Assembly: GCA_028821475.1 (NCBI GenBank)
Contig: JAPPGB010000129.1
Location: 62,001 to 126,000 of the forward strand
Source of the DNA: Spirochaetaceae bacterium
GTDB lineage: Bacteria > Spirochaetota > Spirochaetia > SZUA-6 > Bin103
Reading direction: 5' to 3'
DNA: 64,000 nucleotides
The position numbers were made by a program, and so were the translations under genes. This document shows, one piece after another, positions 4,614 through 59,351 of the stretch. A model generated the notes under the pieces. The model was not told the origin of the DNA. It searched no databases and saw only the letters and a program-made list of their open reading frames with translations. The number at the start of each line of letters is the position of its first letter. The first letter of the stretch is position 1.

Positions 4614-4826
4614 ATGGCCTCAGAAACGACCTACAGATATCGCTTCAAGGTAGACGGGAAGATCGTGCATTGCGGCATCACGACCGACTTGGTGCGCCGC
4701 GAGCGCGAACACAGCCGCCGGTGGCCGACGGGCCGCATTGAACAGGTGGGACCGGCAACCACGCGCGAAGAAGCGTGGCATTGGGAGAGGCAGCAGGCCA
4801 GCAGCGGTTCAAGCTCCGCTTCCTGA
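4614..4826 (+). CDS. Small GIY-YIG-like protein
   Basis: 70 residues. The order YRYRFKV, HCGIT, then DLVRREREH resembles the minimal GIY-YIG nuclease core: a degenerate GIY strand, a degenerate YIG strand and the Arg-rich helix with catalytic-type Arg. It is shorter than the usual 80-100-residue domain and lacks the canonical tyrosine pair, so it may bind rather than cut DNA. The start is supported by GAAGGA six bases before the ATG. Its TGA (4824-4826) overlaps the ATG of the SIR2-like gene (TGATG), indicating translational coupling. Similar short proteins are usually annotated as hypothetical or GIY-YIG family. The gene is divergent from the flavoprotein gene. Confidence 0.65.
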   Translation: MASETTYRYRFKVDGKIVHCGITTDLVRREREHSRRWPTGRIEQVGPATTREEAWHWERQQASSGSSSAS

Positions 4827-5887
4827 TGTCTTCACATGAACCGATCCCGGGGGATGCGGATACCGCGCAGACCCTGTCCGGCAATCATGTCGTGGTCACC
4901 GGCGCCGGGTTCACCCGCGCGGTTGTCCCCGGCGCGCCGTTGCTCGTCGACGATTTCAAGAACGATGACCTCGAAACCAAGGTCCGCGGATTGCCCAACG
5001 CGAGCCGCCTGCTGGACTGGGAACGAAGTCTGGACGAGAGAGGTCACATCGACATCGAGCGCCTGATGACGCGTCTCGATGCCCTGATGCCCTACGACCA
5101 CGCCGAGAGTGCGGGCAACGCGGCGAACGAATACCGCTTCCTGCTTTCGGAACTGAAGAGAGCGTTCCTCGACCGGCTCCGTGAAGCCCGGAACGGGGAC
5201 GTCCGTCGCGAGGAACTGAAGCGATTCGCGACCTACTGCGAAGCCAAGGCATGCTGCTGCGTCACATTCAACTACGACGATTTCCTCGACGAGGCACTGG
5301 AGGAGACCGACAGGTGGAACCCGTATTGGGGATACGGGTTCTTCTGCCCTTCCTCATTGGACACGATTGCCACGGGCGAGGAATTCATACCGGAACCGGA
5401 GTTCCTGCTGCTGAAACTCCACGGATCGATCAACTGGCGGCCGAAACTGGGCTATTCGAGCCCGGTCGCGATCGACAGCATCACACACCATCACGAGTGG
5501 TCCGATGGCGGTTATGTCGGTCCGCAGGTCCGCGGTCACCTGGAGCCCGAACCCGTAATGGTCCCGCCGATTCTGTCGAAGTCCAGTCTTGTGGAACAGC
5601 CGGTGCTTCGGCTCGTCTGGTCGCAGGCGTTCGACCGCCTGGCGACGGCCCACGAAGTCACGTTCGTCGGCTATTCGTTCCCTACCACGGATATGGCGGC
5701 GCGGACGCTGTTCTCCGAAGCGCTGAAGGACCTCCCGCGAGACGACATCACTGTCGTCAATCTGAGCCGCGAAGCGCCGGAGGCCGAGTTGACTCGCAGG
5801 CGCTACCGATCGGTGTTCGGCGATATCCCCGACGAACGGTTCCATTTCGGCGGCGCTCTGGAATGGATAAGAGGTTTGTCGAGGTAG
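4826..5887 (+). CDS. SIR2-like domain protein (putative NAD-hydrolysing defence effector)
   Basis: 353 residues with the marks of the SIR2-like (SIR2_2) fold. These are GAGFT at 26-30 (NAD-binding loop), TFNYDDF near 147-153 (position of the sirtuin TQN-D motif, Asn about 149), LKLHGSINW with the catalytic-type His at 199, and VGYSFPTTD near 281-289 (nucleotide-binding loop). There is no zinc-binding Cys pair, so it is unlikely to be a true deacetylase. Proteins of this class act as NADases in several anti-phage systems (for example Thoeris ThsA, DSR proteins); that role here is inferred. I start it at ATG 4826, which overlaps the stop of the GIY-YIG-like gene; an earlier in-frame start would lie inside that gene. 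The pair forms a two-gene operon next to nuclease genes and rearranged sequence. Confidence 0.8.
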   Translation: MSSHEPIPGDADTAQTLSGNHVVVTGAGFTRAVVPGAPLLVDDFKNDDLETKVRGLPNASRLLDWERSLDERGHIDIERLMTRLDALMPYDHAESAGNAANEYRFLLSELKRAFLDRLREARNGDVRREELKRFATYCEAKACCCVTFNYDDFLDEALEETDRWNPYWGYGFFCPSSLDTIATGEEFIPEPEFLLLKLHGSINWRPKLGYSSPVAIDSITHHHEWSDGGYVGPQVRGHLEPEPVMVPPILSKSSLVEQPVLRLVWSQAFDRLATAHEVTFVGYSFPTTDMAARTLFSEALKDLPRDDITVVNLSREAPEAELTRRRYRSVFGDIPDERFHFGGALEWIRGLSR

Positions 5888-44966: not shown

Positions 44967-45137
44967 ACCGCAAGGGAGCACGCAGCGCAGCGCACGACAC
45001 CGCCGCCGCCGAACCGATCATCCGCAACACCGGCACGGCAGCGCGGCACGGCACAGCAGCACCGTTGCGAACGCCAGCCCCGCTGGCGAAGACGACGACA
45101 CGGCGATGGCGGCCGAGAAGGAGTACGTGACCGACCG

Positions 45138-45195
45138 GACACGGTCGAAGATCTGCAACGGGTGGACGAGGAGATCATCGCGGCCTTCGATTGAA
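45138..45195 (+). pseudogene. 3' end of a second LLM-class oxidoreductase gene
   Basis: Encodes DTVEDLQRVDEEIIAAFD-stop, closely matching the intact LLM protein (DSVEDLQRVDEEIIAAFD) but with a stop right after AAFD. The upstream part of the gene is absent (no homology before about 45135). It abuts a 5' fragment of an AbiEi-like gene. Confidence 0.8.
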
Positions 45196-45224
45196 CCAGC
45201 GTTTCGGGAGTGGTGCGGAGGCCG

Positions 45225-45404
45225 TTTCTCCCATTGCGGCGTCAGGGTATACAGCCCGCGCCGCAGTTGCCGAATGCGCCCGCTGCGCGTCCAGCGCGAG
45301 AGCTGGCGCCGCAGACTGCCAGGGTCGACGGCCCCGGCCAGCAGCAGCCCGGTCTCGAATACCGGCTCATCCGCCACGACCTCCACCAACTCCTGAAGTC
45401 TCAT
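45225..45404 (-). pseudogene. 5' fragment of an AbiEi-like regulator
   Basis: From ATG 45404, about 60 codons encode a winged helix-turn-helix with LRRQLSRWTRSGRIRQLRRG and LYTLTP, the AbiEi-type N-terminus. The rest of the frame runs antisense through the LLM remnant and is not homologous. No toxin partner remains. An AT-rich inverted repeat upstream (45421-45443) looks like its operator. Confidence 0.65.
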
Positions 45405-47898: not shown

Positions 47899-48020
47899 GC
47901 CTCGGTCGCGGATCATATCAGGATGCCCGCTCTCGGCGTAGCGCCAGCGTGCATGACTGGCTTGATTGCATTGCAATCGTTGCGCTATGCTGGGCCGTGA
48001 GGAAACCTGGAGGCTTGACC

Positions 48021-48263
48021 ATGGCGAGCATCACGATCCGCAATCTCGACGACGACGTGAAGACGCAGTTGCGCATCCGGGCGGCAGGCAACGGCCGTTC
48101 CATGGAAGAGGAAGCGCGGCGCATTCTGCGCGAGGCGGTTGGGCCCAAGAGGCGGACCTCGAACCTCGCGCGCGCCATCCGTTCGCGGTTCGCGCCCCTC
48201 GGTGGAGTAGAGCTGGAATTGCCGCCGCGCGAGCCGGCCCGCGAGCCACCTCGTTTCGAGTGA
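48021..48263 (+). CDS. FitA/Arc-type ribbon-helix-helix antitoxin
   Basis: 80 residues. MASITIRNLDDDVKTQLRIR and AAGNGRSMEEEARRILREAV make a classical FitA-like ribbon-helix-helix with the typical RSMEEEAR helix. The remainder would bind the PIN toxin encoded 10 bases downstream. ATG 48021 has CTGGAGG upstream. Second vapBC-type module of the window, unrelated in sequence to the first. Confidence 0.88.
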   Translation: MASITIRNLDDDVKTQLRIRAAGNGRSMEEEARRILREAVGPKRRTSNLARAIRSRFAPLGGVELELPPREPAREPPRFE

Positions 48264-48273
48264 AACCGACGGG

Positions 48274-48696
48274 ATGTACGTGCTCGACACCAATGTCGTT
48301 TCGGAGCTGATGCGGCCGGAGCCGGCTCAGGCCGTCGAGGCCTGGGTCGCTGGGCAGCCGGCAGGGAACCTGTTCTTTTCCGCAGTGGGAGAGGCGGAGT
48401 TGCGTTACGGGGTTGCCATCATGCCGGAGGGCCGGCGCCGGAACCAGGTCGGCGCGGAGGTCGAAGCCGTGTTGAGCGAAGATTTCGAGGGCCGAGTGCT
48501 GCCGTTCGAAAGTCGCGCGGCACGTTTCTATGCGGTGATTGCCGCCGAGTGCCGCGCCGCCGGACGTCCCGCCGCGCAAGCCGATTGCCAGATCGCCGCT
48601 ATCGCGCGGGCACGCGGCATGGCGGTAGCCACGCGCAACGTTCGCCACTTCGAACACATGGGCATCGACGTGACCGACCCGTGGGAGGACGAATGA
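48274..48696 (+). CDS. FitB/VapC-type PIN-domain toxin
   Basis: 140 residues. MYVLDTNVVSELMRPEP supplies the first Asp of the PIN site, followed by Glu in GEAELRYGV, Asp in AQADCQIAAIA and a final position in ATRNVRHFEHMGI (Asn here, as in many FitB proteins). RNase toxin controlled by the preceding antitoxin. Its stop overlaps the ATG of a GH32 5' remnant. Confidence 0.88.
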   Translation: MYVLDTNVVSELMRPEPAQAVEAWVAGQPAGNLFFSAVGEAELRYGVAIMPEGRRRNQVGAEVEAVLSEDFEGRVLPFESRAARFYAVIAAECRAAGRPAAQADCQIAAIARARGMAVATRNVRHFEHMGIDVTDPWEDE

Positions 48697-53392: not shown

Positions 53393-53416
53393 CGGCAGGT
53401 CGGCAGGTCGGCAGGT
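53393..53416. repeat. Three 8-base tandem repeats (cggcaggt)
   Basis: Three perfect head-to-tail cggcaggt units at the left edge of an internal GH32 gene fragment. Confidence 0.9.
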
Positions 53417-53419
53417 CAG

Positions 53420-53462: not shown

Positions 53463-53504
53463 CAATCGCCAACGACTGCGGTCGATTGTGCTATCATAGA
53501 ACTT

Positions 53505-56500
53505 GTGAGTCAGCCGGGAGCATTCCGCAACGCACTGCAGGTCTCGCCGCTTCGCATCGCCACACTTGACGACGCCGATCTGAACGAGTTGATGCGCCAT
53601 CTGCTGCGCGCCCAATCCGTTCGTTGCGGCTGCCCTGACGCCTCTGTCAACGCTCAGGTCGATGCCGCGGACGAAGGCTGTGACGGATGGTCCGCGCAGC
53701 CGAAGTGGCCGGACCCCTGGCTAGGCAACGCTGACACCTGTTGGCAATTCAAATCTGGGACAGCCGGCGAGCCGGCGCGCCTGGCCGGCGAGGTGGAAAA
53801 GACGATACCAAAGCGAACGCTGGAGGGGGGCGGACGCTTCGTCCTGGTTGCGAGTGGCTCGACACGCGGACGATCCGGTGAGGAAGCGCGGCGCGACCAG
53901 CTTGTCGCCGAAGCACGTGACGCAGGACTCCCTGGCGACAAGATTGCGGTCTATGGCAGCGAGAAGCTCACCGATTGGTGCAACCAGTATCCCGCCATCG
54001 CGGCGAGAGTGGCAGGCGCCCCCGCCGGGCTGTCGACGTTCGACGATTGGGCATTCAGCGAAGAGCACCGCATACCCTATCAAGCGTCACCAAAGATCAG
54101 CTCGGAACTATCCAGAGCACGGGCTCAACTCGACTTCGACACCCCTGACGACGCCGAGAGCGCGCTGCACCTTCACGTCCGGGGATTTCCCGGAGTAGGC
54201 AAGACCCGCTTCGCTTTGGAGTTGTGCCGCGATGCCGCGTGGCGGGACACGGTACTCTATGTTCGCCAATCCGAGGATTTCCGCCTCTCGGCGTTGATCG
54301 ACACCGCGGCCGAAGCCCCCGATGTCCGGTTGGTAGTGGTTGCCGATGAAACGCAACCCGAGCACCTCGAGCGCTTGCGCGAATCGGTAGGGAGGGCAGA
54401 CGGACGCGTGCGACTGATCACGGTCGGTAACTGTCACAGTCCTGATCCCACGAGGATTCCCCAGGTCGCTATCGAGCCGCTTGACCCAGCCGCGATGCGT
54501 ACGGTGGTCGGCGGTTGGTACCCCGAAATGCCACTTGAACACGTCGAATTCGTCATCAACTTTGCCGCCGGCTATTTGAAGCTCGGGCGGTTGGCCGCCG
54601 ATGCCGTGGACAGAGATCCCTCGGCAACGCTGCCGAATCTGCTCGCTCGGCACGAGATTCGGGGGATCCTCGACAGCCTGTTGGGCGAGGGCGACAGACG
54701 CGCGCTTTATGTAGTGGCGGTTCTGACGCACGTAGGATGGACCGATGACAAGCAGGGCGAAGGCAGAGCAATTGCGGAGCACTTCGGGCTCGACTGGAAC
54801 GATGTAAGGTATCAGGTGCAGCAGTTTCATGACCGTATGGGTATTGCACCCCGTGGTGGTCGGTACCGTTATATATCGCCGGAGCCGCTGGCCCTTTATC
54901 TGGCCCATGCCGCGGTCGAAACTTTCCCGGATCTACTGAAGTCGCTACCCGACAAGCTTCCATCAGAATCAACGAGAGACGCATACTTCAAGAGGTTAGA
55001 GGCGGTTGCCAGCAACCCGCGGGTAAGGGAGTACTCGCGTGAGCAGTTGAGCCGCTTTTTTTTTCGGATCGATGACTTCGTAGAACCGCACGGTGCCCGC
55101 CGCTGGTCTGCGATTTCGACGGCTGATCCGGACCTTGCGGCGAACAATATTGTCCGCGCCCTGAACTCGTCGAGCACCGATGATCGCCGGCGGATCACGT
55201 TCCGGGCGCTCGCAGAGCTAGTCCGACGATTGGTTCGCATCGCGTCGAGAACATCGGGATTCCACGACGCTGCCACCGCGCTCGCACTGTTGGCCGAGCC
55301 TGAAAACGAGTCATGGGGAAACGGCGCTTCCTACGAATTCGTCGCCAAGTACCACATAACTCTAGGAGGCACGGCACTCCCGTACTTGCAGCGATTGGAC
55401 GTTCTGGATGAACTGATGGACCTGCGGCGTCCCGGAATCGCTAGACTCGTCGTGCGGGCACTGGCCCAAGTTGGTAGTTCCTCGGCCGGTGGATTCGTAA
55501 TGCCGTCCTCGGATCAGGTTCCGGAGCCGGGCTGGCAACCGAATTCCCAGGAACAGCTGCTGGAGTGCATAGTGGCCGGAATTGATCGTTTGCGGACCAT
55601 TGCCGCTGAACGTGATCCCGAACTGCAAGCCGACCTGTTCGCCGCGGCCAAAGAGGTATCATGGTTGCTCCGCTACCGGGATGCAGGCAGCCAAGTAGCG
55701 GCCCTCTACATCCGGCTGCGAGAAGCCTATCCTGAGTTGCGCGAACCACTGCGAAAGCGGATAGCCGATACTATTCGCCGGCATAGCGAGAAACTGTTAC
55801 CGGAACGACTGGAGACGTTACGCCGGTTGCACGCTCGATTCGAAGATTCATCGCTCAACGGCCGGCTGCGTCAAAGTGTCGGGCCGCACGAGTGGGAGCG
55901 AGAGACGCAACCGGACTTTGCGTCGTTCGCCGCGGAGTTGTTGGCCGACCTGCAAGTGCTTGCAGAGCAGTGGCCATGGCTGACGTCCGGACAGGCAGGC
56001 GCGGCTTGGGAACTGGGCGAGGCACTCGCCGCCAAGGATTCCGGAGGTTCGCTGGTCCGAGAATTGCCGAGGCTGCCCGGTGGCGGGCGGGACCAGCGCA
56101 TCGTCTGCGGCTACGCCACGGCACGCCGTCGCGCGATGGGTGACGGGTGGTACGAGGCGTGGGTACTGACGTTGTTCGAACATGATCCACAACCGGTCGC
56201 GCTGCTGCTCGAAGTGGTGTGGCGCTGCGGGGCAACCGACCGATTGGCGAGAAGGACAGCGCAGTTGCTCCGGAGCCGGAACCCGAGCCGCGCCATCGTC
56301 GGACAACTAAAATATGCAGGTTGGCACGATACAGGGGATGCGGCTCTAGCGACACTTCTGCGCGCGCTGATGGAGTCTGGATACCGGGAAACGGCAGCGA
56401 GCATCCTACAGCGCCGGATGGAGGCTGCCACCACCATCGACCGGTGGCAGCAACTTGCCATGGAATTAGTACTGGATCGTGACCTGATCCGCTGTACCGG

Positions 56501-57140
56501 GATGCCCAATCATTATTGGCACGACATCGCCAAGATGATGGCTCCGCACCATCCACGAGAAATCTCCTCAACCATTTTTCAAGCACACGCTCAGCGTGAT
56601 GAATCCGAGCCTTGGTTCCTGCAATACGAAAAGGAAGTTGTCGATGTCCTCCTTGCCTGCACCAAGCATGCGCCATGCCAGGTATGGGACGCACTTCGGC
56701 GTCACTTGTGGCCGCCCCGAAAAGCCGTGTTTTTCGTCATCGGTTTTCCTCCCCAGGTGCTCGAGCTTCTACCGCGGGAGGCTATTCTGGCCTGGATCGC
56801 CGAGACTCCGGTCGACCAGGCGGCTCGTCGAGCGGCTCTAGTGGCGCTGTTGACGAACAAACAGTCCCTGAGCGATGATAGTCTAGCCGCCGGCATTATC
56901 GCTCGGTACGGGAATGATGAGGACGTGAGTGACGCCTTTTTCAGCCACTACGTTTCGGGCACATTCGCAGGCCCCTTGTCGTCTCGATCTCGTGAACTGG
57001 CGAACAATCTCGCCGATATTTCCGAACGGACAGCGCTTCCCGGCCTTCGAAGGTGGGCGGCCAAATCTGCCGCCGCGCTGCGCACCATGGCGGAGAGTGA
57101 GAAACAAGAGGAGGAGGAACGATCTCTTCTGCTTCGTTGA
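53505..57140 (+). CDS. Large STAND-like NTPase with nuclease-like N-terminus (candidate defence protein)
   Basis: 1211 residues. The N-terminal part holds ADEGCDGW (about 53-60) and WQFKSG (about 80-84). The spacing of the acidic residue and Gln-x-Lys recalls a PD-(D/E)XK/Mrr-like nuclease. The P-loop GFPGVGKTR follows at about 227-235 and Walker B RLVVVADE near 276-283. The remaining 800 residues are mostly helical without recognisable enzyme motifs, as in the repeat-rich sensor half of STAND ATPases such as Avs proteins. The GTG at 53505 was chosen because family-like sequence begins there. A -10-like TGCTATCAT ends only a few bases upstream, so the mRNA may be nearly leaderless. It stands alone, not in an operon. 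A defence role is inferred from architecture. Confidence 0.7.
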   Translation: MSQPGAFRNALQVSPLRIATLDDADLNELMRHLLRAQSVRCGCPDASVNAQVDAADEGCDGWSAQPKWPDPWLGNADTCWQFKSGTAGEPARLAGEVEKTIPKRTLEGGGRFVLVASGSTRGRSGEEARRDQLVAEARDAGLPGDKIAVYGSEKLTDWCNQYPAIAARVAGAPAGLSTFDDWAFSEEHRIPYQASPKISSELSRARAQLDFDTPDDAESALHLHVRGFPGVGKTRFALELCRDAAWRDTVLYVRQSEDFRLSALIDTAAEAPDVRLVVVADETQPEHLERLRESVGRADGRVRLITVGNCHSPDPTRIPQVAIEPLDPAAMRTVVGGWYPEMPLEHVEFVINFAAGYLKLGRLAADAVDRDPSATLPNLLARHEIRGILDSLLGEGDRRALYVVAVLTHVGWTDDKQGEGRAIAEHFGLDWNDVRYQVQQFHDRMGIAPRGGRYRYISPEPLALYLAHAAVETFPDLLKSLPDKLPSESTRDAYFKRLEAVASNPRVREYSREQLSRFFFRIDDFVEPHGARRWSAISTADPDLAANNIVRALNSSSTDDRRRITFRALAELVRRLVRIASRTSGFHDAATALALLAEPENESWGNGASYEFVAKYHITLGGTALPYLQRLDVLDELMDLRRPGIARLVVRALAQVGSSSAGGFVMPSSDQVPEPGWQPNSQEQLLECIVAGIDRLRTIAAERDPELQADLFAAAKEVSWLLRYRDAGSQVAALYIRLREAYPELREPLRKRIADTIRRHSEKLLPERLETLRRLHARFEDSSLNGRLRQSVGPHEWERETQPDFASFAAELLADLQVLAEQWPWLTSGQAGAAWELGEALAAKDSGGSLVRELPRLPGGGRDQRIVCGYATARRRAMGDGWYEAWVLTLFEHDPQPVALLLEVVWRCGATDRLARRTAQLLRSRNPSRAIVGQLKYAGWHDTGDAALATLLRALMESGYRETAASILQRRMEAATTIDRWQQLAMELVLDRDLIRCTGMPNHYWHDIAKMMAPHHPREISSTIFQAHAQRDESEPWFLQYEKEVVDVLLACTKHAPCQVWDALRRHLWPPRKAVFFVIGFPPQVLELLPREAILAWIAETPVDQAARRAALVALLTNKQSLSDDSLAAGIIARYGNDEDVSDAFFSHYVSGTFAGPLSSRSRELANNLADISERTALPGLRRWAAKSAAALRTMAESEKQEEEERSLLLR

Positions 57141-58847: not shown

Positions 58848-59066
58848 GTGGGCAAGCTGAAGCATCTGTCAGGACGAGAGGTTTGTCGGATCCTTCAAGC
58901 CCATGGGTTCGTAGAGGTTCGCCGCCGGGGCAGCCATGTGGTCGTGCAGAAGCGGGAAGGGGAAGACACGGTAACCGTTCCTGTTCCTGATCACTCGGAG
59001 GTCCGTATCGGGACGCTGACGGCGATCATCCGTCAGTCGGGCGTGCCTCGTTCGGCGTTCGAGTAA
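58848..59066 (+). CDS. hicA: HicA-family mRNA interferase toxin
   Basis: 72 residues. The start MGKLKHLSGREVCRILQAHG, the VRRRGSHVVVQK stretch with the catalytic His, and TVPVPDHSEVRIGTLTAIIR are the complete HicA double-stranded-RNA-binding-like fold. GTG 58848 has GGAGG six bases ahead. Its usual partner would be a HicB gene on the same strand; here a HicB-like gene lies downstream on the other strand. Confidence 0.9.
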   Translation: MGKLKHLSGREVCRILQAHGFVEVRRRGSHVVVQKREGEDTVTVPVPDHSEVRIGTLTAIIRQSGVPRSAFE

Positions 59067-59096: not shown

Positions 59097-59351
59097 TCAC
59101 TTTGGCGTGCGGACTGAGACCTGAACCCGTGTCACGTAGACCTCTGAGCGGAGTCGGCGTGCAATCTCGCCGTCCGAGGCCGTTTCGAAAAACAGTTCCA
59201 GCGCTTCCTCAAGGTTGGTGCGGGCCTCCTGGATGGTGTTACCCTGACTGGCTACATCCACCTCCGGGCACAGGGCCACGTAACCGGTGCCCTCGCGCTC
59301 GATGATCGCAGTCAATTCCGCGGGAACCTGGCGCCCGCCACCGGATTCCAC
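59097..59351 (-). CDS. hicB: HicB-family antitoxin
   Basis: 84 residues. ELTAIIEREGTGYVALCPEV, then ASQGNTIQEARTNLEEALEL and the tail RRLRSEVYVTRVQV make a short HicB without DNA-binding domain. Its sequence type is the one that normally accompanies the HicA variant encoded next to it. The genes converge, their stops 31 bases apart. Start GTG 59351 or a nearby downstream codon. Confidence 0.85.
   Translation of the reverse strand: MESGGGRQVPAELTAIIEREGTGYVALCPEVDVASQGNTIQEARTNLEEALELFFETASDGEIARRLRSEVYVTRVQVSVRTPK

Follow-up and report, generated by a model that had tools for sequence, protein, structure and literature searches.

A stand-alone PD-lambda-4A-like STAND protein with a nuclease-like domain, probably a phage-defence receptor, in a Spirochaetaceae genome

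The window, that is, the whole stretch of 64,000 nucleotides analysed here, is part of contig C129 of a 5.73-Mb Spirochaetaceae genome assembly. On its forward strand lies an open reading frame of 1211 codons plus stop, which is open throughout from GTG 53505 to 57140 and encodes a PD-lambda-4A-like protein of 1211 aa composed of a REase-like domain, a STAND NTPase, and helical repeats (PADLOC profile PDLC03991). The frame stays open upstream of this GTG as far as TTG 53361. Because the paralogue encoded elsewhere in this genome and the orthologue of a sister species both begin at the position equivalent to GTG 53505, this is the right start, and the reading frame proposed in the initial annotation stands.

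The gene is flanked by oligopeptide transporter genes and a GH32-like glycosidase, and it has no partner gene in the window, in line with its earlier description as lying alone. Its GC3 is 0.66, compared with 0.81 to 0.97 across seven neighboring genes and 0.74 to 0.75 in the copies of the gene found next to leuS (see later). The previously noted weaker GC bias is thus real, and it fits either a foreign origin or low expression. The proposal that the gene adjoins rearranged DNA was dropped, since the upstream spacer has no second copy elsewhere in the genome and the sole repeat noticed there is an 8-bp sequence present in three copies at 53393–53417. An empty site for this copy could not be defined via the GH32 neighbor, of which the sister genomes hold only relatives of about 40%.

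Several other genes in the window resemble defense or toxin–antitoxin genes, the latter lying some kilobases from the gene. These include a FitA-like antitoxin followed by a PIN-domain toxin (47949–48696, forward strand) and a HicA toxin (58872–59066, forward strand; PF07927, E = 1.3e-17) facing a HicB-like ORF (59097–59351, reverse strand) that has no Pfam match at 0.001; the convergent HicA/HicB order is unusual. An AbiEi-like protein of 128 aa is encoded at 45018–45404 on the reverse strand (PF13338; PADLOC AbiEi, E = 2.5e-9), and an ATPase_2/DUF234 protein at 104–1609, also on the reverse strand, matches the PADLOC candidate PDC-S27 (5.9e-52). A SIR2_2-domain protein of 370 aa (4775–5887, forward strand; Pfam PF13289, E = 3.8e-7; PADLOC SIR2, E = 3.5e-6) is possibly another defense effector, judged by these profile matches.

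Seven nucleotides before the start codon, the predicted extended −10 promoter core TGCTATCAT can be read at 53489–53497 (forward strand). Motifs of the same form, TGnTATnnT, precede the start of three further copies, ending 9 nt upstream of it in the copy next to leuS and in that of the sister species and 14 nt upstream in the copy of a distant spirochaete (loci L005, L020, and L023, respectively). The motif is rare, with nine occurrences in the 128 kb of strand that the window comprises (0.07 per kb per strand), and the chance of finding it in a 20-nt stretch is approximately 0.0014 for one gene at this composition; the four copies are not independent, as the first three are related and the fourth comes from a genome richer in AT. 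Because this rare element sits 7 to 14 nt before the start in four copies, the transcript would probably have its 5′ end only a few bases from the start codon and be a leaderless or nearly leaderless mRNA, as had been suspected for this gene.

The N-terminal part of the protein is predicted to form a REase-like domain of the PD-(D/E)XK, QxK type (approximately residues 1–175; 53505–54029, forward strand). In a 13-member alignment, D56, G58, D60, Q81, K83, and E96 are nearly invariant. The segment D56-E-G58-C-D60 (53670–53684, forward strand) contains the putative metal-binding acid D60, and Q81-F-K83 (53745–53753, forward strand) is the putative catalytic QxK, so the nuclease-like motifs that had been placed near residues 53–84 are indeed present. 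They combine into the pattern GxD-x20..27-QxK, which corresponds to the acid-x(n)-(D/E/Q)xK signature of PD-(D/E)XK nucleases and occurs in 12 of the 13 relatives; the remaining one, as annotated, starts downstream of the motif. Together with the P-loop described later, the pattern is conserved across bacteria and haloarchaea. An AlphaFold2 model of residues 1 to 215, based, like the C-terminal model, on alignments five rows deep that omitted the plasmid relatives, shows a mixed α/β core with a mean pLDDT of 73.5. The best PDB match of this model in Foldseek is the restriction enzyme MspJI (probability 0.97, E = 9e-3, query TM score 0.39); the CRISPR nuclease Can2 is also similar (probability up to 0.95), and other restriction enzymes match more weakly. 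The match to MspJI is moderate and supports, without proving, a PD-(D/E)XK nuclease at the N terminus; the lack of any nuclease fold in the prediction, which would have spoken against the original reading, was not seen.

The nuclease-like domain is followed by a P-loop NTPase. The Walker A motif GFPGVGKTR, at residues 227–235 as anticipated (54183–54209, forward strand), is present in 13 of 13 relatives, and Walker B, LVVVADE at residues 276–282 (54330–54350, forward strand), contains D281, which is invariant in the 13-member alignment. The remainder is a putative autoinhibitory or sensor region, an all-helical array (54600–57137, forward strand) that carries the family signature AxAENExWxNNATGxFxxLFQxxLxGT (residues 597–624; 55293–55376, forward strand), in which E600 and T623 are invariant. 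The AlphaFold2 model of residues 186 to 1211 (pLDDT 76.7, pTM 0.46) consists of the NTPase with its P-loop core followed by helices only, approximately 50 of them, and almost all of the C-terminal 800 residues are helical, as the initial annotation had estimated. Among PDB structures, this 1026-residue part is most similar in fold to the STAND protein PH0952 (2.3e-6), with SAMD9, an Avs3–terminase complex (1.1e-5), HEAT-repeat proteins, and plant NLRs as further matches. Hence, motifs, model, and fold matches all show the Walker A and B core followed by helical domains that characterizes STAND proteins, and one relative matches nSTAND_NTPase5, albeit weakly. The suggested order of a REase-like effector, a STAND NTPase, and a helical sensor is borne out by the motifs in 13 relatives and by the C-terminal fold, with weaker backing from the N-terminal fold.

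Since the nearest nuclease fold is that of a restriction enzyme, and since the plasmid of one relative carries Dnd phosphorothioation genes, we considered a direct restriction-type enzyme, in which the REase domain would cut nonself DNA that the protein itself recognizes, with the ATPase in the role of motor or clamp and with no sensing of phage proteins. The ATPase, however, is of the STAND type rather than the helicase type, the helical array of approximately 800 residues is of the kind seen in sensors, and no modification-reader domain was found in Pfam. We therefore regard this explanation as unlikely.

Searches of the window protein against Pfam and NCBIfam gave nothing above the cut-off, and a sequence search of the PDB with the single protein gave nothing useful; a profile search of the PDB gave only noise-level matches, led by plant NLRs. 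The informative match is to the PADLOC profile PD-Lambda-4_A (PDLC03991; E = 1.2e-17, 60.9 bits), which aligns with residues 18 to 720 over 57% of the profile and so spans the nuclease, the NTPase, and the first helical part. The same profile matches 13 of 13 aligned relatives, the best at 5.8e-111, and the window protein is thus a homologue of component A of the PD-Lambda-4 system. The PD- systems, including PD-lambda-4, come from phage selection in Escherichia coli (Vassallo et al. 2022, PMC9519451), and a published domain table gives only a P-loop NTPase for PD-lambda-4 (PMC10952713). Component B (PD-Lambda-4_B, PDLC03992) was absent from the protein's own genome and from 12 genome or plasmid records with relatives, in a search that did give matches in a control genome. 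PDLC03992 appears to be the sole B model, PDLC03993 being PD-Lambda-5_A, and genes neighboring the relatives, checked as candidate B components, did not match it. Because B is missing from the genome and the 12 records, the gene is, as far as these profiles tell, a solo PD-lambda-4A-like protein that does not qualify as a PD-lambda-4 system as defined.

No Avs profile matched the window protein at E ≤ 1 or any of 12 relatives at E ≤ 0.01, and assignment to Avs by sequence was accordingly rejected. Of the Avs-type plan in the initial annotation, the domain order therefore holds, whereas the family link does not; the protein, which at that stage could not be placed in a named family, now stands beside PD-Lambda-4_A. 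No search pointed to a housekeeping family, the outcome that had been named as contradicting the immune reading.

The genome contains a second full-length copy, 56% identical and located between leuS and polA, and a sister species has an 83% identical orthologue of that copy at the same site. A remnant of a third copy, comprising the C-terminal 60 codons, lies beside a hydrolase-like gene (L006, 1501–1680, contig C92). A tree built from 15 relatives pairs the two leuS copies (support 99/98) and joins the window copy to them as their sister (100/100 for all three). Either, then, the copies diverged before the two species did, or the window copy was acquired from a close relative. The dN/dS ratio is approximately 0.2 for all pairs, with dS near saturation for the window copy, which indicates that both copies are under purifying selection. 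Between the paralogues, the helical C terminus is the least conserved part (45–53% identity, compared with 61–62% in the N-terminal domains), a mild effect of the sort expected of a sensor under changing pressure.

Distant relatives (17–30% identity) occur in another spirochaete, actinobacteria, cyanobacteria, alphaproteobacteria, and haloarchaea, and their spread is patchy: 3 of 98 near relatives have one, as do, by profile, 3 of the 395 genomes of the class. Scanning of genome contigs with the single window protein gave no match, and scanning with a four-row alignment gave four loci; no relative was found in phage records or viral contigs. Two actinobacterial relatives are split into two frames (L021, 8977–12571; L022, 1822–5400) and are broken or misassembled. 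In addition, we observed proteins of approximately 1360 residues that carry an Xre-type HTH at the N terminus: one in a sister genome (L036, 1218–5333; genome G002, contig C73), a stretch of which matches PD-Lambda-4_A (E = 2e-5), and one that directly adjoins a PD-lambda-4A relative (L018, 2127–6191). They may represent another branch of this class of receptors.

Defense genes surround several of the relatives. Besides the plasmid with Dnd-associated genes nearby, one relative adjoins a type I restriction system and an N6-methylase, another is near Piwi and a CBASS phospholipase, and yet another is near AbiEi/AbiEii and two restriction endonucleases. The two full copies in this genome are located differently: the leuS copy sits in a housekeeping neighborhood rather than a mobile island and has been kept vertically, flanked by leuS and polA, in two species, and the window copy lies among transporters without an operon partner. 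Such settings would suit a STAND protein that regulates something other than immunity, such as transcription or stress, and whose REase-like domain is a DNA binder and not a nuclease. Yet even very distant relatives keep D60, Q81, and K83, which is unexpected for a mere DNA binder, the family member A stems from a validated antiphage locus, the spread is patchy and crosses domains of life, and Pfam revealed no DNA-binding regulator domain. We consider a non-immune role improbable, marginally more so than direct restriction.

Taken together, the gene probably encodes a stand-alone, nuclease-armed STAND-class receptor for phage defense, homologous to component A of PD-lambda-4, as judged from sequence, models, and analogy. 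In favor of this reading are the PD-Lambda-4_A match, the phage selection of the founding member, the conserved motifs, the fold matches, the defense neighbors of relatives, dN/dS of approximately 0.2, and patchiness. Against it stand the absence of PD-Lambda-4_B, the coverage of 57% of the profile, the E value of 9e-3 for the N-terminal fold, the kept housekeeping neighborhood of the leuS copy, and the lack of relatives in phage and viral records.

Avs proteins are tripartite, with an effector, an NTPase, and a C-terminal sensor, and the nuclease effector of Avs1–4 cleaves phage and host genomes once phage proteins are recognized (PMC12931631). By analogy with these proteins, the receptor proposed here may be phage-triggered and cut DNA. 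In the resting state, the long helical array would keep the ATPase closed. Binding of a phage product to the array would then allow the P-loop domain to bind ATP and several copies to assemble, as in other STAND proteins, and assembly would join the N-terminal REase-like domains, which could cut the DNA of the phage, and perhaps of the host, and thereby end the infection.

So far, PD-lambda-4 has been catalogued as a P-loop NTPase without an assigned mechanism, and the conserved GxD...QxK N terminus together with the STAND fold provides it with a testable mechanism of effector, switch, and sensor. The finding is a new B-less form of a known but little-studied defense protein. We see an even chance that the B-less proteins form a nuclease–STAND branch that split from PD-lambda-4A and functions without component B in bacteria and haloarchaea, and that in these spirochaetes the gene has been vertically kept, duplicated, and made leaderless. 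The B-less branch points to a receptor that may need no partner in either bacteria or archaea, and a comparison of the two full copies of this genome, which have diverged, would test for differences in sensing between them.

Compared with known systems, the protein is closest to component A of PD-Lambda-4 (PDLC03989–03991), with which it shares homology over the nuclease, NTPase, and first helical region; it differs in occurring without component B, and identity between the branches is approximately 20 to 25%. With Avs1–Avs4 (AVAST) it shares the order of effector nuclease, STAND NTPase, and helical sensor, and Avs3–terminase is among the top fold matches, but there is no Avs profile match and the protein has approximately 1200 residues compared with approximately 2000 in the Avs3 structure 8dgc. 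The STAND protein PH0952 (6mfv) and plant NLRs resemble the NTPase and helical part, PH0952 giving its best fold match, whereas the relationship in sequence is at noise level. Finally, the PD-(D/E)XK nucleases MspJI and Can2 are the best fold matches of the N-terminal domain, with moderate similarity (E values of 9e-3 to 0.07), and differ from it in not being fused to a STAND NTPase.
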